64,000 bases of DNA from an uncultured Acidobacteriaceae bacterium (lineage in GTDB: Bacteria; Acidobacteriota; Terriglobia; Terriglobales; Acidobacteriaceae): contig CAIVDV010000003.1 in the NCBI GenBank assembly GCA_903904755.1, forward strand, positions 1 through 64,000, written 5' to 3'. Below the pieces are notes generated by a model. That model was not told the DNA's origin, made no database searches, and saw only the letters and a program-made list of their open reading frames with translations. Of this stretch, positions 18,072 to 34,484 are shown one piece after another. How positions within the stretch are numbered: the stretch's first letter is position 1; each line of letters starts with the position of its first letter. Both the position numbers and the translations under genes were made by a program.

Positions 18072-21000
18072 TTAGAACTCTTCGTTGAGGTCAACCTTGG
18101 GGAGCTCGTCGCCGTCGCGGGCGAAGAGGACATAGAGGGTTGGCAGCAGGAAGATGCCGATGATGAGGTTGGCGAGGAGGCCGCCGACGATGACGATGGC
18201 GAAGGGGCGCTGGGAGTCAGAGCCGATGGCGTGAGAGAGGGCGGCCGGCATGAGGCCGAGGGTGGCGACGAGCATGGTCATCATGATTGGGCGGAGGCGA
18301 AGGACTGCGCCTTCGACTGCGGCTTCGACGATGTGAGCCTGGGTGGATTCTTCCATGCCGCGGCGGTGGGCGCGTAGCTGGTTGATGAACTCGATCATGA
18401 TGACGCCGGTTTGGACGGAGACGCCGAAGAGGGCGAGGAATCCGACGGCGGAGGAGACCGAGAAGTTGGTGTGGGTGAGGAAGAGGGCGAGCGGGCCGCC
18501 GATGGAGGCCATGAGGACGCTGACGAGGATGAGCAGAGCCCACTTGGCGGAGCGGAACATGGTGTAGAGGATGAGGAAGATGACGATGCCGGTGATGGGA
18601 ATGACGATGGCCATGCGCTTGTTGGCGCGCTTCTGGCTTTCGTATTCGCCGGCCCACTCGAGGTGGTAGCCGATGGGGAGTTTGACGTTGTGGTCGACCT
18701 TTTGGATGGCTTCTTCGACGGTGGAGCCGAGGTCGCGGTGTTCGACAGAGTACTTGATGGCGATGTAGCGCTGTCCCTGCTCGCGGTAGATTTCTTCGGC
18801 GCCGTCGTCGAAGGCGGATTGGGTGAGCTGGGCGAGGGAGACCCGTTCGCCGGAGGGTGAGAGGAGGCGGATCTCCTGGATGGCCTCGCGGGTGTCGCGG
18901 TAGTTGGGTTTGTAGCGGAGGGTGACGTCGTAGCGGGCCTCGCCCTGCTGGACCTGGGTGAGGGGGTTGCCGCCGACGGCGGTCTGGATGGCGTCCTGGA
19001 CATCGGCGACATTGATGCCGAAGCGTGCTGCGGCTTCGCGGTCTACGGTGAGGTTGAGGTTGGGCTGGCCGATGATGCGGAAGATGCCGAGGTCGGCGAC
19101 GCCGGGGACGGTGGCCATCTGGTCCTGGATTTCCTGCGCGGTTTTTTCGAGGGTGCGGAGGTCGTCGCCGTAGAGCTTGACGGCGAGCTCGCCTTTGACG
19201 CCGGAGACGGCCTCTTCCATGTTGTCGGAGATGGGCTGGGAGTAATTCCAGAGGACGCCGGGGAATTTGGAGAGTTCCTTGTCGATGGCGGCGATGAGGG
19301 CTTCCTTGTCCTGGTTGAAGACGGGGCGCCATTCCTTTTTAGGCTTGAGGTCGACGAAGTATTCGGTGTTGAAGAAGCCGGCGGTGTCGGTACCGTCGTC
19401 GGGGCGGCCGGTTTGGCTGACGACCTGGGTGACCTCAGGGAAGCTGGCCATGACGAGGCGGGCCTGGTTGGTGAAGTCGATGGAGGAAGTGGGGCCGGTG
19501 GATGGCGCGAGGGTGCCACGGATCCAGATGGAGCCTTCGTCGAGGTGGGGGAGGAATTCCGAGCCGATGGGGCCGCCGAAGGTGAGGTAGATGGCTGCGG
19601 CGAAGAGGATGCCGGAGACGGCGAGGGTGACGCGGGTGTGCCTGATGGCAGCGGTGACGGCGGTGCGGTAGTGGCCGGTGAGCCAGCCGAGAAGGGGATT
19701 TTCCCACTCTTTTGCGCCGTTGCGGAAGAGGATGGAGGCGAGGACCGGGGCGATGATGATGGCGAAGACGAGCGCGCCGATGAGAGCGAAGGTGACGGTC
19801 CAGGCCATGGGCTTGAAGAGGCGGCCTTCGACGGCCTGGAGGGTGAAGATGGGCAGGTAGCTGGCGATGATGATGCCGCGAGCGAAGAAGACGGGGCGCT
19901 GGACCTCGTAGGAGGCGTCGCGGATGCGCTGGATGGGGGTGCGGGTGTCGTTGGCTTTGCCGAAGTGGCGGACGATGTTCTCGATCATGACGACGGAGCC
20001 GTCGACGACCATGCCGAAGTCGAGTGCGCCGAGGGAGAGGAGATTTGCCGGGATGTGGCTGAGGTCGAGGCAGATGGAGGCAAAGAGGAGCGCGAAGGGG
20101 ATGGTGAGGGTGACGATGATGGCGCCGCGGATGTTGCCGAGGAAGAGGAAGAGGATGAGGGAGACGAGGAGGACGCCTTCGAGGAGATTGTGCTCGACGG
20201 TTTCGACGGTGTAGCTGACAAGTTTGGAGCGATCGAGAAAGGGAACGACCTTTACGCCGGGAGGGAGGATGTGCTCGTTCAGCTCGGTGACTTTGTCGTG
20301 GATGCCCTGGAGGACGGGGTCGGAGTCGTCGCCTTTCTGGAGGAGGACGACGCCTTCGACGGTGTCGTCGTTGTCGACGATGGAGCCGTCGGGGCGGTGG
20401 GTGGAGCGGCCGATTTGACCGAGGCGGATTTTGGGGCCCTGCTCGACGGTGGCGATGTCGCGGATGCGGAGGGCGGTGCCGTTCTGGGTTTTGATGACTG
20501 TGTTTTCAATGTCGGCGACGGAGTTGAAGAGGCCGAGGGACTGGACGTTGATTTGCTGGGCGCCCTGCTCAATGAAGCTGCCGCCGCCGTTGGAGTTGTT
20601 GTTGGCGATTTGCTGCTCGATTTGGGAGAGGCTGAGGCCGTAGCCGACGAGTTTGTCGGGGTCGATCTTGATTTGGTACTCGCGGGTGGGGCCGCCGAAG
20701 CTGGCGACGTCGACGACGCCTTTGACGCTCTTGAACTGCTTTTCCAGCGTCCAGTCTTCGAGGGATTTCTTCTCCATGACGTCGTAGGCGGGGTTGGTGG
20801 ACTCGAGGGTGTACCAGAAGATTTGGCCGACGGGTGACCAGTCGGTACCCATTTGGGGCTGGAGGCCGGCGGGGAGGCTGACCTGGTTGAGGCGCTCGAG
20901 GACGTGCTCGCGGTTGACGTCGCTGGTGGTGTTGTCCTCAAAGATGAGCATGAGGCTGGAGATGCCGGCAAGCGAGCTGGAGCGGAGATGGGCGAGGCGA

Positions 21001-21230
21001 GGGATGCCGCCCATCTGGATTTCAATGGGGATGGTGACCTGGCGCTCGATTTCCTCGGCGGAGCGTCCGGGCCATTGGGTGATGATTTGGACGTAGTTGT
21101 TGGCGACGTCGGGGTAGGCCTCAATGGGGAGGCCGCGGAAGGCTATGACGCCCCAGATGGTGAGGGCGAGGACGCCACCGAGGATGAGCCATCGACTCTT
21201 GAGGGCGAAGTTGACGAGGGCACGGATCAC
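18072..21230 (-). CDS. HME-RND efflux pump inner-membrane subunit (CzcA-like)
   Basis: A 1052-residue resistance-nodulation-division proton antiporter of the heavy-metal group. The fourth transmembrane helix carries DFGMVVDGSVVMIEN, close to the DFG-x-x-VDGAVV-x-x-EN signature of CzcA-type (Co/Zn/Cd or Ni/Co) pumps and unlike CusA-type sequences. Two large periplasmic loops and about 12 helices are expected at this length. The GTG start overlaps the adaptor stop by 4 bp. It would move divalent cations from periplasm or cytoplasm out through the outer-membrane partner; the exact metal is inference. Confidence 0.92.
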   Translation of the reverse strand: MIRALVNFALKSRWLILGGVLALTIWGVIAFRGLPIEAYPDVANNYVQIITQWPGRSAEEIERQVTIPIEIQMGGIPRLAHLRSSSLAGISSLMLIFEDNTTSDVNREHVLERLNQVSLPAGLQPQMGTDWSPVGQIFWYTLESTNPAYDVMEKKSLEDWTLEKQFKSVKGVVDVASFGGPTREYQIKIDPDKLVGYGLSLSQIEQQIANNNSNGGGSFIEQGAQQINVQSLGLFNSVADIENTVIKTQNGTALRIRDIATVEQGPKIRLGQIGRSTHRPDGSIVDNDDTVEGVVLLQKGDDSDPVLQGIHDKVTELNEHILPPGVKVVPFLDRSKLVSYTVETVEHNLLEGVLLVSLILFLFLGNIRGAIIVTLTIPFALLFASICLDLSHIPANLLSLGALDFGMVVDGSVVMIENIVRHFGKANDTRTPIQRIRDASYEVQRPVFFARGIIIASYLPIFTLQAVEGRLFKPMAWTVTFALIGALVFAIIIAPVLASILFRNGAKEWENPLLGWLTGHYRTAVTAAIRHTRVTLAVSGILFAAAIYLTFGGPIGSEFLPHLDEGSIWIRGTLAPSTGPTSSIDFTNQARLVMASFPEVTQVVSQTGRPDDGTDTAGFFNTEYFVDLKPKKEWRPVFNQDKEALIAAIDKELSKFPGVLWNYSQPISDNMEEAVSGVKGELAVKLYGDDLRTLEKTAQEIQDQMATVPGVADLGIFRIIGQPNLNLTVDREAAARFGINVADVQDAIQTAVGGNPLTQVQQGEARYDVTLRYKPNYRDTREAIQEIRLLSPSGERVSLAQLTQSAFDDGAEEIYREQGQRYIAIKYSVEHRDLGSTVEEAIQKVDHNVKLPIGYHLEWAGEYESQKRANKRMAIVIPITGIVIFLILYTMFRSAKWALLILVSVLMASIGGPLALFLTHTNFSVSSAVGFLALFGVSVQTGVIMIEFINQLRAHRRGMEESTQAHIVEAAVEGAVLRLRPIMMTMLVATLGLMPAALSHAIGSDSQRPFAIVIVGGLLANLIIGIFLLPTLYVLFARDGDELPKVDLNEEF

Positions 21231-22378
21231 TGGGTCACCGCGCTTTCAAGGGAGAGGGCGTTGGTGACGACCTGGGTGCCGAGGGCGATGCCGTCGAGGA
21301 TTTCCTGCCGACCATCGGGGAGGATACGTCCGCCATGGACGGCGGTGCGCTTGAATTGGGCGTCGCCGGCGGGAACGAAGACCCAGTCGCGGTCGTGGAG
21401 ATGGAGGACGGCGGTGGCGGGGATGACGGCGTGGGTTTCCGGGGTACGGCTGGCGAAGGTGGCGGTGACGAACATGCCGAGCTTGAGGAAGCCGGGGTTT
21501 GCGACTTCGAGACGGACCTTTGCTGTGCGCAGGGTGGGGTCAAGGACGGGGCCGATATCGGAGACGCGGCCGGTGAGGAGCTTGTCAGGGTATGCGTTGA
21601 CGTGGATTTTGGCAGACTGGCCGAGCTGGAGCTTGGCGAGGTCGTTTTCGTAGACGTCGCAGAGGATCCAGACGGAGGACAGGTCGGCGATGGTGAAGGC
21701 GGTTGCGGAGCCGGAGTAGGTGACGCCGGCGGCGGCGGAGTTGGTGACATTTTGGGCGATGACGACGCCGGAGGTGGGGGCGTAGACGGGGACGAGGTTG
21801 CCGGGGTGGGATTTGTCGAGGCCGAGGGTGTGGAGTTGCTCCTCGGCGGCGGTGAGGGTGGATTTGGCGTCCTGCTCGTTGGCTTCAGCCTGTTCGAGCT
21901 GGGACTGGGGGATGGCGCCGTGTTCGAGGAGGTCTTTGGCGCGGGCGAGGGCCTGGGAGGCGAGGCGCTCATCGTTGGTGGCGCGGCGGAAGACGTCAAA
22001 AGCGTTGGTGGCGTCGGGGCTTTGGATCTTCATCATGAGGTCGCCTTTGTTGACGGAGTCGTCGAGGCGGGCGTGGATTTCGACGACGCGGCCTGAGGCG
22101 AGGGAGATGACGGGGATTTCGCGGGCGATGTCGGGGGTGACGGAGCCGGTGGCGTTAAGCTCCGACGGGGCTTCGAGCTTGCCGGCGGAGAGAGTGGGGA
22201 ACTGGCTGAGCTTGGCCTTGTCTACGGTGACGAGGTTCATGTCGGTGACGTGGGTGACCTGGGCGGCTGGGGGCGCGGTGTCGCCGGCCGGTTCTGTTTT
22301 GCAGCCGGAGAGGGATGGGGTGACGAGCAGGGCCGCGAGGGCGGGGAGGAAGACGAGATTGCGGGAGTTGGTGGTCAT
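21227..22378 (-). CDS. RND periplasmic adaptor lipoprotein (CzcB/CusB-like)
   Basis: A 383-residue membrane fusion protein linking the pump to its outer-membrane channel. The N-terminus has a lipobox (SLSGC), so it is probably lipid-anchored. Domains in order: beta-barrel/lipoyl half with ASGRVVEIHARLDDSVNKGD, an alpha-helical hairpin (ALARAKDLLEHGAIPQSQLE), the second lipoyl half with VYAPTSGVVIAQNV, and a C-terminal beta-barrel. ATGA and GTGA overlaps couple it to both neighbours. Confidence 0.92.
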   Translation of the reverse strand: MTTNSRNLVFLPALAALLVTPSLSGCKTEPAGDTAPPAAQVTHVTDMNLVTVDKAKLSQFPTLSAGKLEAPSELNATGSVTPDIAREIPVISLASGRVVEIHARLDDSVNKGDLMMKIQSPDATNAFDVFRRATNDERLASQALARAKDLLEHGAIPQSQLEQAEANEQDAKSTLTAAEEQLHTLGLDKSHPGNLVPVYAPTSGVVIAQNVTNSAAAGVTYSGSATAFTIADLSSVWILCDVYENDLAKLQLGQSAKIHVNAYPDKLLTGRVSDIGPVLDPTLRTAKVRLEVANPGFLKLGMFVTATFASRTPETHAVIPATAVLHLHDRDWVFVPAGDAQFKRTAVHGGRILPDGRQEILDGIALGTQVVTNALSLESAVTQ

Positions 22379-28884: not shown

Positions 28885-29916
28885 ATGCGTTTGAAGTTGG
28901 GTTTGGTAGCGGTTGGATGTGGATTGCTGAGCATGGCTTGTACGGGCGCGATGGCGCAGACCGGGTACAAGGTGACGGCGGAGTGGAAGGTTGGCGGGGA
29001 TGGTGGCTGGGATTATCTGGCAGTGGACCCGGTGACCAACGAGCTGTATGTGACCCGCGGGGCGCACGTGATGGCGATTGATACGGCGACGGGCAAGTTG
29101 GTGGCCGATATTACGGGCTTCAAGGGCACGCATGGTGTGGTGTTTTCGAACGACGGGACGACGGGGTATATCTCGGACGGGCGTTCGAACGAAGTTGCGG
29201 TGTTTGACCGGGCGACCCATGCGGTGACGGGCCATGTAGCGACGGGTGCGAATCCGGACGGGATGGTGTTTGACGAGTTTACGCAGACGGTTTGGGCGTT
29301 TAACGGTACAGGCAAGAGCGCGACGGTGATTGACGCGAAGACGAATACCGCTGTGGCGACGATTCCGCTGCCGGGCAAGCCGGAGTTCCCGGTGACGGAC
29401 GGGAAGGGATCGATTTTTGTGAACATCGAGGACAAGAATCTGATTGTCCACCTGGATGCGGTGAAGAAGGTGAAGCTGGCGGAGTGGTCGATTGCTCCGT
29501 GCGATTCGCCGAGCGGCCAGGCGATTGATGTGAAGTCGAACCGGCTGTTCAGCGTATGCGATGGCAGCGTGATGACGGTGACGGATGCGGCTACGGGCAA
29601 GGTGGTGGCGACGCCGAAGATTGGCGACGGGCCGGATGCTGCTGCGTTTGATGCCAAGACGGGGTTGATTTTCAGCTCGAACGGGCAGTCGGGGACGCTG
29701 AGCATTGTGCACGAGGACAGCGCGGACAAGTACACGGTGGTGGATACGGTGAAGACGGCGGCGAGCGGCCGGACGATGGCATTTGATGCCAAGACCGGGA
29801 AGGTGTATGTGGTGGTGGGCAAGTTTGGCCCGCGTCCGGCACCGACGCCGGAGAATCCGCGGCCGTGGCCGACGCTGATTCCGGGAAGTTTTGAGGTTTT
29901 GGTGGTGAGCCGGTAA
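28885..29916 (+). CDS. Secreted YncE-like beta-propeller protein
   Basis: A 343-residue exported protein with signal peptide (ending near AMAQ) and repeated blades of the YVTN/YncE type, each with motifs such as VTNELYVTRGAHVMAIDTAT, NEVAVFDRATHAVTGHVATG and KSATVIDAKTNTAVATIPLP. It starts at ATG 28885 with AAGGAGAG 8-9 nt upstream. Function unknown; such proteins bind peptides, DNA or metals in other bacteria. A clear terminator follows, so it is probably a single-gene unit. Confidence 0.85.
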   Translation: MRLKLGLVAVGCGLLSMACTGAMAQTGYKVTAEWKVGGDGGWDYLAVDPVTNELYVTRGAHVMAIDTATGKLVADITGFKGTHGVVFSNDGTTGYISDGRSNEVAVFDRATHAVTGHVATGANPDGMVFDEFTQTVWAFNGTGKSATVIDAKTNTAVATIPLPGKPEFPVTDGKGSIFVNIEDKNLIVHLDAVKKVKLAEWSIAPCDSPSGQAIDVKSNRLFSVCDGSVMTVTDAATGKVVATPKIGDGPDAAAFDAKTGLIFSSNGQSGTLSIVHEDSADKYTVVDTVKTAASGRTMAFDAKTGKVYVVVGKFGPRPAPTPENPRPWPTLIPGSFEVLVVSR

Positions 29917-29943
29917 CCTTTTTCTCAAATGAAGAATCAGTAG

Positions 29944-30025: not shown

Positions 30026-30688
30026 TTGTCGATGGAGCGGAGCAGCGCGGAGGGGGAGTGTCCGGGGCAGGGGTTGGACCCTGCGCTGGAGCTGATCGCA
30101 CGCATTGTTGCGGGCGAGCGGCAGCTTTTCCACGAGTTGATACGGCCGGTGGAGCGGCAGGTTTTTGTGATGCTGCGGATGCTGCTGAAGGATGATGCGG
30201 AGGCGGAAGATGTGGCGCAGGAGACGATGATCAAGGTGTATAGGCACCTGGGGTCGTTCCGGGGAGAGTCAAAGTTCAAGACGTGGGTGCTGTCGATTGC
30301 GCGGAATGAAGGGCTGGCGCGGCTGAAGAAGGTGGAGCGGCGGGCCGAGGAGACGTTGATACCGGAGCAGGATGAGCCGGGCGGGGACTGGACGCCGGCG
30401 CTGTTGACGGATTGGCGCGAGGTTCCGCTGGAGGCACTGGAGCGGAAGGAGCTGGGCAAGGCTCTGCAGGCAGCGGTGATGGGATTGCCGGGGATTTACC
30501 GGGAAGTGGTTGAGTTGCGGGATGTGGAAGAGCTGAATGTGGAGGAGACGGCGAAGTTGCTGGGTGTGACGGAGAACGTGGTGAAGGTGCGTCTGCACCG
30601 GGCCCGGCTGATGCTGCAGAAGACGCTGACGCCGGTGCTGCAGCAACATGCCGGGAAGCGCCGGGGATGGCTGGGGTGGTTGCGATGA
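30026..30688 (+). CDS. ECF-type RNA polymerase sigma factor
   Basis: A 220-residue sigma-70 family regulator. Region 2 contains DDAEAEDVAQETMIKVYRHL and FRGESKFKTWVLSIARNE; region 4 contains LPGIYREVVELRDVEELNVE and the helix-turn-helix VEETAKLLGVTENVVKVRLH. The start is uncertain: TTG 30026 has GGAG at good spacing, while ATG 30032 is about 13 nt from it. The next gene, a zinc-finger protein, overlaps by ATGA and is the likely anti-sigma factor. The bufferin-type cluster begins about 1 kb downstream. Confidence 0.9.
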   Translation: MSMERSSAEGECPGQGLDPALELIARIVAGERQLFHELIRPVERQVFVMLRMLLKDDAEAEDVAQETMIKVYRHLGSFRGESKFKTWVLSIARNEGLARLKKVERRAEETLIPEQDEPGGDWTPALLTDWREVPLEALERKELGKALQAAVMGLPGIYREVVELRDVEELNVEETAKLLGVTENVVKVRLHRARLMLQKTLTPVLQQHAGKRRGWLGWLR

Positions 30689-30945
30689 GGATTGACTGCC
30701 AGCACGTTTGGGAACATATCTCGCGCTACATTGATGGCGACGTGGATACGGAGTTGCGCGCGGAGATTGACCGCCACCTGGAGCACTGCGAGATTTGCTC
30801 GGCGGTGATGGATTCGACGCGGAACGTTGTGGTGCTGATGGCGGATGAGCGGGTGTTTGAGATACCGGCGGGGTACAGCGAGCGGTTGCACAGGCGACTG
30901 GACGCGGTGCTGGCGGGGCCGCCGGGTGGGGACGTGGAAAGTTAG
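30685..30945 (+). CDS. Zinc-finger anti-sigma factor
   Basis: An 86-residue soluble protein with the HxxxCxxC motif of zinc-binding anti-sigma domains (RHLEHCEICSAVM) and an upstream Cys-x-x-x-x (DCQHVWEHISRYIDGD). It starts at ATG 30685 inside the sigma-factor stop. It probably holds the partner sigma factor inactive until redox or metal stress alters the zinc site. There is no transmembrane helix, unlike many ECF anti-sigma factors. Confidence 0.85.
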   Translation: MRIDCQHVWEHISRYIDGDVDTELRAEIDRHLEHCEICSAVMDSTRNVVVLMADERVFEIPAGYSERLHRRLDAVLAGPPGGDVES

Positions 30946-31057: not shown

Positions 31058-31537
31058 TTATGCGTTGGGAAGGTATTGGGAGACTGCGCTCTGGGCGGGC
31101 AGGGGGCGAGGGCGGTGGACCATGGGGTGGGTGATGACTTCCGCGAGGACGATCAGGAGGGTGAGGACGGAGAGGGCGATTTGAAGACGCTCGGCGCGGC
31201 GTTCGCGGAGGGGGATATCGCGGCGACGCCAGTGGGCCGAGGCGCGGGCGCGGAGAATGCGGACGCGGATGAGGACGGCGAGGTTGACCAGTGCGCCGAG
31301 GGTGCCAAGGATGAGCATGGGGATGCGGATGGCGTCCTGGTGGAATCCGGTGGGCGGGGCGTATGTTCCGGAGGCGACGGCGAGGGCGGTGAGGCCGATG
31401 GCGACGCGGATTCCGCTGAGGGCGAGGACGGCGGCGCAGGCGCTTTGCAGAATGGCGAAGAGGAGGGTGACAAGGGAGAGCAAGCGGAGGCGGGCTGGAG
31501 AGGGGGCGTTGGCGGTTTCGGGGGTGATTTCAGTCAT
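31058..31537 (-). CDS. Four-helix membrane protein, unknown
   Basis: A 159-residue integral membrane protein with four predicted helices (about residues 20-42, 45-62, 72-92 and 118-135) and a strongly basic loop (RVRILRARASAHWRRRDIPL) on the probable cytoplasmic side. I do not recognise the family. ATG 31537 gives a natural polar N-terminus; a longer frame adds a proline run. It is convergent with the sigma/anti-sigma pair and divergent from the bufferin precursor. Confidence 0.65.
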   Translation of the reverse strand: MTEITPETANAPSPARLRLLSLVTLLFAILQSACAAVLALSGIRVAIGLTALAVASGTYAPPTGFHQDAIRIPMLILGTLGALVNLAVLIRVRILRARASAHWRRRDIPLRERRAERLQIALSVLTLLIVLAEVITHPMVHRPRPLPAQSAVSQYLPNA

Positions 31538-31704
31538 GCCATGCAAGGGTAGCGCAGGGGGTGGTGGGGGTGCCAGCACGAGGGGGAAAAGAAAGGCGAG
31601 AATTTGCTTTCATTTTTTTTGGGTATCCCTGTAACCTTTGTTCCCAGTGGCCGCTCTTAGGCGGTGTAGCAAGAAAAACCGGATGGTTCCCAACATCCAA
31701 GAGA

Positions 31705-31749: not shown

Positions 31750-32052
31750 ATGAAGAAGCAGTTGAATGCACTGATGTTGAGCGCCGCCCTGGCCGGGCTG
31801 GCAGTTGGAACCCACGTAGCCCAGGCGCAGCCGGTGACGCAGGACAGCGCCAAGGTGACGACGGCCAAGGGCGCGGGCGTGCGCTATGCCGGATACAGCA
31901 TGGACAAGGAAAAGCATGCCTGTAAGGGCCAGAACAGCTGCAAGGGCAACGGCGGCTGCAAGAGCGGCGACAACGGCTGCGCGGGCAAGAACAGCTGCAA
32001 GGGCAAGGGCGGCTGCGCGACGGACGGATCGAAGCCTCCCAAGGCAGCTTAA
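31750..32052 (+). CDS. bufA: Bufferin-type Cys-rich RiPP precursor (BufA-like)
   Basis: A 100-residue exported precursor. A signal peptide (about residues 1-27, ending in AQAQ) is followed by a Cys-free linker, then six cysteines at 58, 64, 70, 77, 83 and 89. They form two copies of C-x5-C-x5-C (CKGQNSCKGNGGC and CAGKNSCKGKGGC). Bufferins are periplasmic metal-binding peptides whose cysteines are modified by an MNIO enzyme; copper buffering is established for Caulobacter. The next genes encode such an enzyme, its partner and DoxX. The Shine-Dalgarno sequence is weak (GAGAG, about 10 nt away). Cysteine pattern and repeats are seen; modification and metal are inferred. Confidence 0.88.
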   Translation: MKKQLNALMLSAALAGLAVGTHVAQAQPVTQDSAKVTTAKGAGVRYAGYSMDKEKHACKGQNSCKGNGGCKSGDNGCAGKNSCKGKGGCATDGSKPPKAA

Positions 32053-32060
32053 GGGGCTGA

Positions 32061-32160
32061 GGTGGTAGACCCCGGTCCCCAAGTGCGAGGGACCGCGGGC
32101 ACCCGGAAACTGCGGGTGGTAGACCCCGGTCCCCAAGTGCGAGGGACCTGGGGGCACCCG
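32061..32160. repeat. Tandem duplicate of the GGTCCC/GGGACC module
   Basis: Two copies of a roughly 46-nt unit, each GGTGGTAGAC, then CCCGGTCCC-N9-GGGACC, then GGGCACCCG, occur at 32061-32105 and 32115-32160. The hairpin arms are at 32074-32079/32089-32094 and 32128-32133/32143-32148. They fill most of the 217-bp gap between the bufferin precursor and its enzyme gene. They may let the precursor be expressed more strongly than the enzyme through partial termination or mRNA end protection. Confidence 0.8.
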
Positions 32161-32269
32161 ACTCGATGATTTCAGATGGCTTCCCCACCATGGCGGCGGG
32201 GGCAGGGAACTGTCCTCGCCGTTTTCCTGGGATGGGGCTTGAGCGACAAATTTCAAGGTAGAGGTTGGC

Positions 32270-33121
32270 ATGGCGGGCAATCGTTTTAATGCGAATCAGG
32301 ACCACGGGGTGGGGGTTGGGCTGCGGATTCCGCACTATGACCACATCTTCCGGGAGAAGCCGGCGGTGGACTGGTTCGAGATCATCAGCGAGAACTACAT
32401 GGTGGATGGCGGGCGTCCGCTGGCGATGCTGGATCGGATTATGGAGCAGTACCGGGTGGTGCAGCATGGGGTTTCGATGTATTTTGGCTCGGCGCAGGCG
32501 GCGGACCTGGAGCACCTGAGGAAGCTGAAGCGGCTGGTGAAGCGGACGGGAACGCCTTGGCTGAGCGACCACTTGTGCTGGGGGAGTGTAGACGGGACGT
32601 ATTCGCATGACCTGCTGCCGCTGCCGTACACATGGGAGGCGGTGGAGAAGACGGCGGCGCGGATTAGAGAAGTGCAGGATTTTCTGGAGATTCCGGTGGC
32701 GGTGGAGAATGTCTCGAGCTATGCGGCGTATACGCAGAGCGAGATGACGGAGTGGGAGTTTTTGAACGAGGTGGTGGAGCGTGCCGACTGCGGGATTCTG
32801 CTGGATGTGAACAACATTTATGTGTCGAGCGTGAACCATGATTTTGACCCGATGGAGTATGTGAATGCGGTGCCGGCGGAGCGGGTGGCGCAGATGCATA
32901 TTGCCGGGCACTCGAAGTATGAGAAATACATTCTGGACACGCATGATCATCCGGTGATTGATCCGGTGTGGGCGCTGTATGCGCGGGCGGTGGATCGGTG
33001 CGGGCCGACGCCGACGCTGCTGGAGTGGGATGACCGGATTCCGAGCTTTGACGAGGTCTGGGCCGAGGCGCGGAAGGCGGAGCGGTATCTGGTGGCGGCG
33101 CAGGAGGTGGGTGCGCGATGA
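32270..33121 (+). CDS. bufB: MNIO/DUF692 RiPP-modifying oxidase (BufB-like)
   Basis: A 283-residue TIM-barrel enzyme of the multinuclear non-haem iron oxidase family, which modifies cysteines of RiPP precursors. The family's probable iron ligands are in place: QHGVSM (His66), LSDHLCW (Asp100, His101), VENVSSY (Glu146), DVNNIYVSSVNH (Asp179, His190), QMHIAGH (His210, His214), DTHDHPV (Asp223, His225) and LEWD (Glu252). It starts at ATG 32270 with AGAGG five nt upstream, and its stop overlaps the partner gene (ATGA). The likely substrate is the Cys-rich precursor encoded 217 bp upstream. Confidence 0.93.
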   Translation: MAGNRFNANQDHGVGVGLRIPHYDHIFREKPAVDWFEIISENYMVDGGRPLAMLDRIMEQYRVVQHGVSMYFGSAQAADLEHLRKLKRLVKRTGTPWLSDHLCWGSVDGTYSHDLLPLPYTWEAVEKTAARIREVQDFLEIPVAVENVSSYAAYTQSEMTEWEFLNEVVERADCGILLDVNNIYVSSVNHDFDPMEYVNAVPAERVAQMHIAGHSKYEKYILDTHDHPVIDPVWALYARAVDRCGPTPTLLEWDDRIPSFDEVWAEARKAERYLVAAQEVGAR

Positions 33122-34014
33122 GCGGGATGAGCCTGGAGACGATGCAGCGGCGGATGCTGGCTGCGGTGATGCAGCCGCTGACGCCGGAAGACACGATGCG
33201 GGAGCGCAACGAGGCCGGGGAGCGGATGGCGGATGTGGCGGCGGAGTTTGTGGCGCCGAATGACCGGCTGACGGCCTTTGAACGGCTGGAGATTTATAAC
33301 CGGCAGTACTGGTTCCGGCTGCTGGGGGCCTTGGGGGAGGATTTCCCCGCGTTGCGGCGGGTGCTGGGGAGCCGGCGGTTTGATGCTCTGGCGGTGGCGT
33401 ATTTGAAGGAGCATCCGAGCCGGAGTTTTACGCTGCGGAACCTGGGGCGGGAGCTGGTGGGGTGGATGCGGAAGCATCCCGAGTACCTGGGGCGAAGGAA
33501 GCGGCTGGCGCTGGATGTGGCGCGGGTGGAGTGGGCGTGTGTGGAGGCTTTTGATAACGGAGAGCTAGCCCCGCTGACGGCCGAGGAGATTGGCGACTTG
33601 CATGGGGGTTCGCGACTGGGGTTGCAAGCGCATCTGCAACTGCTGGAGCTGGATTTTCCGGCGGATGATGTGGTGCTGGAGTTGCACCAGCGGGAGCGGA
33701 AGGGCGCGAGCGAAGGCGGAGCGCGGCCGGAGATGGGGGAAATGAAGCCGGAGGCGCTGGATGTGGAGCGGAGGCGGACGTGGCTGGCGGTGCATCGGGC
33801 GGATGGGAGCCTGTATTACCGACGGATTACGAAAGAGGAGTATCAGACGCTGACGGCCTTGGGGCGTGGTTTGGGATTGGGCGAGGCGCTGGGGGCGGGA
33901 TTTCGGAGATCGAGGATTGGGCCGGCGGAGCGGCCGGCGGCGTTGCAGGAGTGGTTTGCGCATTGGGCGGGATTGAGTTGGCTGACGAAGCCTGAGATTG
34001 AGGAGAGAGCGTAA
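33118..34014 (+). CDS. bufC: DUF2063 partner protein (BufC-like)
   Basis: A 298-residue cytoplasmic protein. The N-terminal DUF2063 domain (roughly residues 8-110) is recognised by ERLEIYNRQYWFRLLGAL and EDFPALRRVLG. Related proteins bind the precursor's leader and dock it on the MNIO enzyme. The C-terminal half has a beta-rich domain with VDVLE-type strands and ends in a stretch of helices. Overlaps of 4 bp with bufB and 1 bp with the DoxX gene show it is part of one transcription unit. Confidence 0.9.
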   Translation: MSGMSLETMQRRMLAAVMQPLTPEDTMRERNEAGERMADVAAEFVAPNDRLTAFERLEIYNRQYWFRLLGALGEDFPALRRVLGSRRFDALAVAYLKEHPSRSFTLRNLGRELVGWMRKHPEYLGRRKRLALDVARVEWACVEAFDNGELAPLTAEEIGDLHGGSRLGLQAHLQLLELDFPADDVVLELHQRERKGASEGGARPEMGEMKPEALDVERRRTWLAVHRADGSLYYRRITKEEYQTLTALGRGLGLGEALGAGFRRSRIGPAERPAALQEWFAHWAGLSWLTKPEIEERA

Positions 34015-34484
34015 TGGCGAATGGATTGGTGAAGTTGGCGGTGGGCGGCGGCGAGAAGGCGGTTGGGCTGCTGAACAAGGGGCAGAGTGTGTTGCTGCTG
34101 CTGATTCGGCTGGACTGGGGCTACCAGTTTGCGCAGACGGGCTGGGGGAAGCTGCACCGGTTGCCGCAGGTGACGGAGTTTTTTGCTTCCCTGGGGTTGC
34201 CGATGCCGGCGCAGACGGCTCTGTTTGTGGGGCTGGTGGAGTTTGTGGGCGGGATATTGCTGGCGCTGGGATTGGGTAGCCGGGCTGTGGCGGCGGTGCT
34301 GTTTGTGAATATGAGCGTGGCGTATGTGACGGCAGACCATGATGCGGTGGCGGTGTTCTTCAGCGATCCGGGGAAGTTTGCTTCGGCTGATCCGTTTACG
34401 TTCTGGTTTGTTGCGCTGATTGTGCTGGTGTTTGGGCCGGGGTGGTTTGCGGGGGATACGTGGTTGAAGAAGCAGGTGAAGTAG
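34014..34484 (+). CDS. DoxX-family membrane protein
   Basis: A 156-residue protein with four transmembrane helices and the DoxX pattern (LLIRLDWGYQFAQTGWGKLH, then GLVEFVGGILLALGLGSR). DoxX genes recur at the end of bufferin- and Hvf-type clusters, where they may accept electrons or help metal or peptide export; the mechanism is not settled. ATG 34014 shares one base with the bufC stop (TAATG). A glycosyltransferase starts 22 bp after its stop. Confidence 0.88.
   Translation: MANGLVKLAVGGGEKAVGLLNKGQSVLLLLIRLDWGYQFAQTGWGKLHRLPQVTEFFASLGLPMPAQTALFVGLVEFVGGILLALGLGSRAVAAVLFVNMSVAYVTADHDAVAVFFSDPGKFASADPFTFWFVALIVLVFGPGWFAGDTWLKKQVK

Follow-up and report, generated by a model that had tools for sequence, protein, structure and literature searches.

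The window, a 64,000-nucleotide stretch of contig CAIVDV010000003.1 from an uncultured Acidobacteriaceae bacterium (a 4.2 Mb draft genome in 83 contigs), carries at positions 31750-34484 a bufferin-type cluster. It comprises, in this order, genes for a precursor (bufA), a multinuclear non-haem iron-dependent oxidase (MNIO; bufB), a DUF2063 partner with a recognition element (RRE) for ribosomally synthesized and post-translationally modified peptides (RiPPs; bufC) and a DoxX protein (bufD). The product of the cluster is probably a RiPP of the bufferin-2, or Cys-Lys captophorin, kind that buffers copper in the periplasm; its expression would be switched by a neighbouring extracytoplasmic function (ECF) sigma factor, and it would be modified at least at the second and fifth of its six cysteines (C2 and C5). 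It is a real MNIO locus and more than a chance arrangement, because its three enzyme genes match Pfam and NCBIfam models, because a precursor of the same type stands upstream of the MNIO gene at 86 of 89 loci, the window included, and because the precursor evolves with fewer nonsynonymous (dN) than synonymous (dS) substitutions. The four genes lie exactly where a sequence-only reading of the window had placed them, and the open reading frames of the last three overlap through ATGA and TAATG as it had claimed.

It has been proposed that bacteria very widely use bufferins in response to copper stress. Of 200 genomes sampled from an order of soil bacteria, 84 carry the compact form defined here, and the NCBI BufA2 genome search finds 52 of these 84. 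Its natural four-cysteine versions suggest which cysteines matter, and a conserved promoter together with a sigma pair makes the regulation of Cys-Lys type clusters testable.

Precursor and maturase

The survey set comprised 200 genomes of the order Terriglobales, 92 of which gave a PF05114 match, at 104 places in all. Eighty-nine of these places were taken, 88 at 329 bits or more plus locus L104 at 223.8 bits, and 15 divergent or fragmentary ones were left out. The set of 86 loci used for precursor comparisons further omits L102 and L103, which have DUF2282-like precursors, and L104, near whose MNIO no precursor was found.

The bufA gene runs on the forward strand from an ATG at 31750 to a stop codon ending at 32052. 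Its 100-residue product has a predicted signal peptide, MKKQLNALMLSAALAGLAVGTHVAQAQ, identified by eye, and six cysteines spaced C-5-C-5-C-6-C-5-C-5-C. The sole NCBIfam match is to the BufA2 model NF050166 (profile positions 26-65 of 79); searches of PHROGs and of Pfam, including the DUF2282 family of Bufferin-1, gave no match for the precursor. Behind it, bufB (32270-33121, forward strand) encodes an MNIO that passes the NCBI BufB equivalog NF050167 (359.9 bits, cut-off 310), reaches 368.8 bits on PF05114 and stays under the HvfB cut-off (267.6 bits against 360). H66, H101, E146, D179, H210, D223, H225, E252 and D254 are identical in all 89 aligned MNIOs (the window and 88 relatives), and residues of these conserved blocks presumably hold iron, as in the MbnB and TglH literature.

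The catalytic aspartate of the window enzyme is followed by a second one (Asp254-Asp255), where 3BWW has Asp-Phe. Asp255 recurs in 86 of the 89 MNIOs, the exceptions being L102, L103 and L104, the three loci without a precursor bearing the Cys-Lys-Gly (CKG) motif. As an aspartate in this place marks the Cys-Lys captophorins, sequence comparison assigns the window to an acidobacterial branch of the Cys-Lys (Buf2) group, in which a missing EGKCG motif is to be expected. The sequence-only reading had correctly noted that BufA lacks EGKCG and uses NSCKG, which is present twice; its suggestion that modification pattern and metal may differ for this reason is not supported as it stands, for the absence is nothing unusual, a Cys-Lys group that includes BufA2 having already been described in the available text of PMC13097082.

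With a threshold of 90 bits, a profile built from 38 precursors matched 84 of the 200 genomes, and these are precisely the 84 that encode full-length BufB; one further genome (G172) gave a partial match of 28.8 bits. Precursors occurring without an MNIO had been named beforehand as evidence that would tell against the assignment; because precursor and BufB share the same 84 genomes (strong matches in 84 of 84, and in 0 of the 116 others), this comparison leaves the assignment standing. The same distribution bears on the idea that BufA is an unmodified, metallothionein-like periplasmic cysteine protein whose linkage to an MNIO is incidental. Six reduced cysteines could bind Cu(I) unaided and the modified product is predicted from sequence only, whereas the strict co-occurrence and the substrate-matching aspartate of the MNIO both speak for modification, and we regard an unmodified peptide as very improbable. 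The precursor core is under purifying selection: dN was below dS in all 86 usable pairs of 91 tried among 14 chosen loci, with medians of 0.056 for dN and 0.907 for dS.

Two points concerning BufA weigh against the overall explanation. At 28.3 bits its score lies below the curated BufA2 cut-off of 60, like the scores of the 52 genomes in the order that match the model at all; these 52 fall within the 84 BufB genomes, and the cut-off, exceeded in none of the 200, is passed in 10 of 297 genomes sampled across the phylum. When scanned singly, 32 of 38 precursors match the model at E ≤ 0.001. The genome search recovers five of the 36 genomes with a four-cysteine form, one of them (G131) through its six-cysteine copy, and the six cysteine positions of canonical BufA2 are matched by the window in part, C1 to C5 fitting and C6 not. 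The second point is that the AlphaFold model of the precursor, built on 47 sequences, is uninformative (predicted local distance difference test score (pLDDT) 50, predicted template modelling score (pTM) 0.17), so no structural reading is taken from it.

Among the best 80 of 499 relatives, the best-matching named loci belong to uncultured Acidobacteriaceae metagenome-assembled genomes (MAGs), Occallatibacter, Edaphobacter (classified in the Terriglobales, Acidobacteriota), Granulicella, Silvibacterium and their relatives. The genomes of L102 and L103 have a CKG-type cluster plus a second, DUF2282-like (Buf1) cluster. A Spartobacteria (Verrucomicrobiota) MAG carries the same six-cysteine precursor adjoining an MNIO (L212, 4486-4767), through transfer or mis-binning. 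A second, decayed cluster in another genome (G113:C1, about 393799-396498) consists of a sigma gene, a copy of the precursor gene interrupted by a single in-frame stop codon and the short remnant of an MNIO.

Cysteine pattern and sites of modification

The 86 precursors comprise 45 with six cysteines, 37 with four, three with five and one with seven. Four-cysteine forms lack C3 and C4, five-cysteine forms lack C4 only, and the quartet of C1, C2, C5 and C6 is retained at every locus. The context N-x-C-K-G surrounds C5 in 86 of 86 precursors and C2 in 85, and is never found around C1, C3 or C6. On account of this conservation and context, 5-thiooxazoles are predicted at C2 and C5 at least. Periplasmic binding of Cu(I) is predicted as well. 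The four-cysteine label requires two changes on the MNIO tree, at least one of them forced by well-supported branches, so two independent losses of C3 and C4 are likely, if not proven. The quartet resembles, by analogy, the four-cysteine arrangement of Buf1, in which modification affects the two central cysteines and a disulfide joins the outer pair (PMC12452194, in the text available).

Against the choice of C2 and C5 stands C4, which has the same N-x-C-K-G context in 35 of the 46 precursors with six or seven cysteines. Family-wide, the context therefore does not distinguish C2 and C5, and this recount lowered our confidence both in the overall explanation and in the four-cysteine reading, while raising that in an alternative within the same RiPP class. 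According to this alternative, more than two cysteines are modified (C4 too, or both triads), giving two or more metal sites and possibly a preference for another metal, a view not far from that of the sequence-only reading. It gains from an internal repeat, CKGxNxCKGxGGC, which is real, and from EGKCG-type relatives in which most or all cysteines are modified, according to the accessible portions of PMC13097082 and PMC12538549. Against it stand the 37 of 86 loci that dispense with C3 and C4 in two changes on the tree, the five-cysteine forms, canonical BufA2, which has no cysteine at the position of the window C6 and one further on, and C4 of the window itself, whose context is NGCAG. We consider modification at more than two cysteines unlikely, albeit the strongest competitor to modification at C2 and C5.

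The sequence-only reading had divided the precursor into two modules of C-x5-C-x5-C. The internal repeat survives, but the modular split holds in part at most: C1 to C5 have canonical BufA2 spacing. Canonical BufA2 of the same phylum, and the precursors beside Thiothrix, Sphingomonas and Paraburkholderia MNIOs, agree in this C1-C5 pattern apart from a longer one beside L111; in all of these the last cysteine lies 12-13 residues past C5. Other acidobacterial precursors have at least 12 cysteines, with the whole six-cysteine block in tandem (L116, L117, L118, L121, L123, L126, L128 and L129), and in the published Buf2 survey, as far as its text was available, 90% of members have six cysteines and the rest twelve, one twelve-cysteine member being modelled as a duplicated domain (PMC12452194). 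On these grounds the duplicated unit elsewhere in the phylum is, judged by its sequences, the six-cysteine block, and the internal three-cysteine similarity an older or looser pattern. Two metal-binding units per peptide, also suggested by the sequence-only reading, are thereby made less plausible, the more so because the loss of C3 and C4 at 37 of 86 loci breaks both triads. Some of the acidobacterial precursors with tandem blocks have extra short cysteine motifs.

The sigma factor pair and a candidate promoter

Genes for an ECF sigma factor (30026-30688; PF04542/PF08281), the proposed regulator of the cluster, and for a soluble zinc-finger anti-sigma factor of zf-HC2, RsrA-like type (30667-30945; PF13490, 39.3 bits; RsrA model, 36.8 bits, under its cut-off of 62.5) precede bufA and share its forward strand. 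With the window sigma factor as query, 80 matches of at least 187 bits were found in 77 of the 200 genomes, that is, in 68 of the 84 BufB genomes and nine of the 116 others; this cut-off was set after the score list had been seen, and G128 falls just under it (179.9 bits). Of the 84 BufB genomes, 56 have the sigma gene no more than 6 kb from bufB, 28 of them on the same strand and 28 on the opposite one. Three arrangements recur: that of the window, a divergent doxX-sigma-anti-sigma operon and a downstream one, bufABC-doxX-sigma-anti-sigma. At L051, a short open reading frame about 760-460 nt before bufB resembles the N-terminal part of the sigma factor in the window and is probably a truncated sigma gene; this genome keeps TGTAACC.

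Motif enrichment and co-occurrence with the sigma gene point to a predicted ECF-type promoter, TGTAACC-N17-CTCTTA (31630-31659, forward strand), about 120 nt before bufA. TGTAACC occurs within 300 nt before bufA at 51 of 86 loci, as against a mean of 1.5 and a maximum of 6 in shuffled sequences and 12 on the other strand; TGT[A/T]ACC is present at 59 loci, and at 46 of them it is followed, 16 or 17 nt on, by the TC of a TCnAA-like -10 element. In a looser form, chosen after the sequences had been inspected, the element is present before bufA at all 70 loci whose genome encodes the sigma factor and at 4 of the 16 whose genome does not. Fifty-two new loci were drawn from the best 80 of 499 relatives, after removal of six without a precursor matching the regular expression, 20 of the remaining 74 that were already known and two of the remaining 54 with short upstream sequence. 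There the loose element was found at 20 of 21 loci with a sigma gene (at least 150 bits) in the stretch versus 15 of 31 without.

A related element precedes some of the sigma genes too. Among 51 sigma genes of at least 150 bits with surroundings, GTAACC lies no more than 350 nt ahead of the first gene of the sigma or doxX-sigma unit in 19 (shuffled mean 3.7, reverse strand 9). The 30 doxX-first operons were split by eye into 19 detached ones, 14 of which have the element, and 11 read through from bufC, none of which has it; where sigma is first, it is present in 5 of 21, two of these five copies lying more than 300 nt away.

Several observations count against control of the cluster by this sigma factor, beginning with the post hoc choice of the loose motif. 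The element is present at 15 of the 31 new loci with no sigma gene in the stretch, some of which may carry one elsewhere; nine of the 77 genomes with the sigma factor lack a full-length BufB; and GTAACC is missing from most sigma upstreams. The correlation of sigma factor and motif tracks phylogeny: a corrected test offered four independent pairs (with the loose motif none of them opposing, with the strict one an average of 0.2), and the sign test was not significant. The strict pattern has two matches in the window's own genome, the second being L135, and its reversed control also has two. Before the window sigma gene no clean element was found; a GGTAACC at 29912-29918 overlaps a stop codon and lacks a clear -10.

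The nine sigma genomes without BufB and the dependence on phylogeny would fit a sigma pair that is a syntenic neighbour in charge of a general response to envelope or oxidative stress, with buf as a minor target at most, all the more as 15 of the 80 sigma matches are in BufB genomes yet more than 6 kb from bufB, and 16 of 21 sigma-first genes have no GTAACC upstream. Against it, the linkage withstands rearrangement, in equal numbers on either strand, and the same element stands before bufA and before 14 of 19 detached doxX-sigma operons; we think this explanation improbable.

The arrangement has a counterpart in Caulobacter, where DUF2282 bufferin operons are transcribed under sigma-F from a GTAACC-N16-CGAA promoter and NrsF acts as the negative regulator (PMC3511200, from the part of the paper available). 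Both have an ABC-DoxX operon, a GTAACC-type ECF promoter and an adjoining sigma/anti-sigma pair. They differ in precursor family, in the anti-sigma factor, which in the window is a zf-HC2 protein and not NrsF, and in the -10 spacing, which is 1-2 nt longer in the window. Shared descent of the two sigma factors was not adopted, the window protein having 26% identity over 136 residues to a Sphingomonas NrsF-linked sigma factor and a different best model. A fuller account can be offered tentatively, at somewhat less than even odds: the Terriglobales branch of the bufferins would be a distinct one, with four cysteines (C1, C2, C5 and C6) as its essential core and C2 and C5 converted to thiooxazoles, and would have recruited its own redox- or metal-sensing sigma pair independently of Caulobacter sigma-F, with a similar GTAACC-type promoter.

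BufC, DoxX and the bufA-bufB gap

The MNIO gene is followed, as in bufferin and captophorin clusters, by a gene for a DUF2063-RRE partner, bufC (33118-34014, forward strand; PF09836, 66 bits; HvfC model, 31.9 bits, under its cut-off of 142), of PME type 1. Its AlphaFold2 model (pLDDT 92.3) matched, in a Foldseek search of the PDB, TglHI (8hi7 and 8hci) and NGO1945 (3dee) at E ≤ 0.001, the RRE protein TbiB1 coming next without significance. The modelled fold thus matches those of solved MNIO partners.

The last gene, bufD (34014-34484, forward strand), encodes a DoxX-family membrane protein (PF07681, 69.5 bits) with homologues at 71 of the 89 loci, several of which are available as short stretches only. 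DoxX matches a PHROG annotated as quinone oxidoreductase TQO, which, with the RsrA-like anti-sigma factor of a thiol-sensing type, raises the question of whether the cluster serves sulfur or oxidant defence and copper is secondary. The Caulobacter sigma-F regulon responds to chromate and cadmium and includes YedY (PMC3511200, in its accessible part), which would agree with such a role; the biochemically tested members of the class, in contrast, bind Cu (PMC13097082 and PMC12452194, as far as their text was available). A primary role in sulfur or oxidant defence accordingly seems doubtful, about as much so as that of a bystander sigma pair.

The 217-nt gap between bufA and bufB holds two copies of a GGTCCC...GGGACC hairpin repeat (32061-32148, forward strand). 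Six copies are present in the genome at up to three mismatches, and the gap folds more stably than shuffled sequences (z -2.4). The repeats may uncouple expression of the precursor from that of the enzymes.

Proposed mechanism

In the copper-buffering scheme that we favour, a thiol-oxidising or zinc-displacing stress, most likely excess copper, would inactivate the zinc-finger anti-sigma factor, and the freed ECF sigma factor would transcribe bufABC-doxX from the TGTAACC promoter. This second step is proposed because of the linkage and promoter evidence, the others being modelled on the class; what the sequences themselves show is the genes and their families, their conservation, co-occurrence and linkage, and the promoter element. 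The RRE of BufC would then bind the precursor, and BufB would turn those cysteines that lie in N-x-C-K-G, in the window C2 and C5, into 5-thiooxazoles, the lysine after each modified cysteine being accepted by Asp255; C4 is possibly a third site in most six-cysteine relatives. After export by Sec, the peptide would sequester Cu(I) in the periplasm, with C1 and C6 acting as a disulfide or as extra ligands and C3 and C4 being dispensable.

Relationship to known systems

The chemistry and the general cluster type are already known: for both bufferins and captophorins, 5-thiooxazoles and Cu binding are described in the available text of PMC12452194 and PMC13097082. The closest relative is Bufferin-2 (BufA2B2C2; Buf_6/12Cys; NF050166), with which the window shares a six-cysteine precursor, in the window predicted to be exported, the ABC plus DoxX order, CKG motifs, the BufB equivalog and a C1-C5 spacing of 5-5-6/8-5, found in most of the canonical members read. 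It is set apart by a C6 only 5 residues after C5, by a score below the BufA2 cut-off, by relatives with four, five or seven cysteines and by its ECF sigma/zinc-finger anti-sigma neighbourhood; the 2025 survey, in its accessible text, reports sigma genes in Buf1 clusters and none in Buf2 (PMC12452194).

Captophorins of the Cys-Lys group (PMC13097082, in part) likewise have an MNIO with PME1, multiple Cys-Lys motifs and an Asp after the catalytic Asp; for the window their chemistry is a prediction. The word Acidobacteri- is absent from the main text of that paper. Oxazolin/Hvf (EGKCG) peptides have MNIO, DUF2063 and DoxX partners too, but in the window there is no EGKCG, lysine follows most cysteines instead of preceding them, and the HvfB cut-off is missed. 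The short six-cysteine reading frames of Antarctic soil bacteria also stand in series with DUF692 and DUF2063 genes and have a proposed role in chelation; they differ in being described from Gammaproteobacteria, and the word DoxX is absent from the main text (PMC8692599, as available).

A title-level search, with subscription papers mostly outside it, and the text of PMC13097082 and PMC12452194 yielded no sigma-controlled Buf2 or acidobacterial bufferin in print. Two things are, by sequence comparison and as far as these tools show, new: the compact form of the acidobacteria, which scores under the BufA2 cut-off and has four-cysteine versions, and the association with an ECF sigma/zinc-finger anti-sigma pair and a shared promoter element.

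Other features of the window

An Rfam scan of the window at gathering cut-offs returned a tRNA only. On the reverse strand at 18072-22378 lie genes for a CusA/CzcA heavy-metal RND (resistance-nodulation-division) pump (18072-21230; 940 bits, cut-off 701) and a CzcB-like adaptor. A link of this pump to the cluster was considered and dropped, the nearest copy in five congeners being away from buf: on another contig in G075, G128 and G129, about 100 kb off in G131 and, as a 37%-identical copy, on another contig in G143.

Between the anti-sigma gene and bufA, convergent with the former and divergent from the latter, a reverse-strand gene (31058-31579) encodes a small hydrophobic, probably membrane protein with a homologue at 33 of the 89 loci. 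This gene also accompanies the sigma pair away from buf, standing beside 16 of 20 such sigma genes examined.

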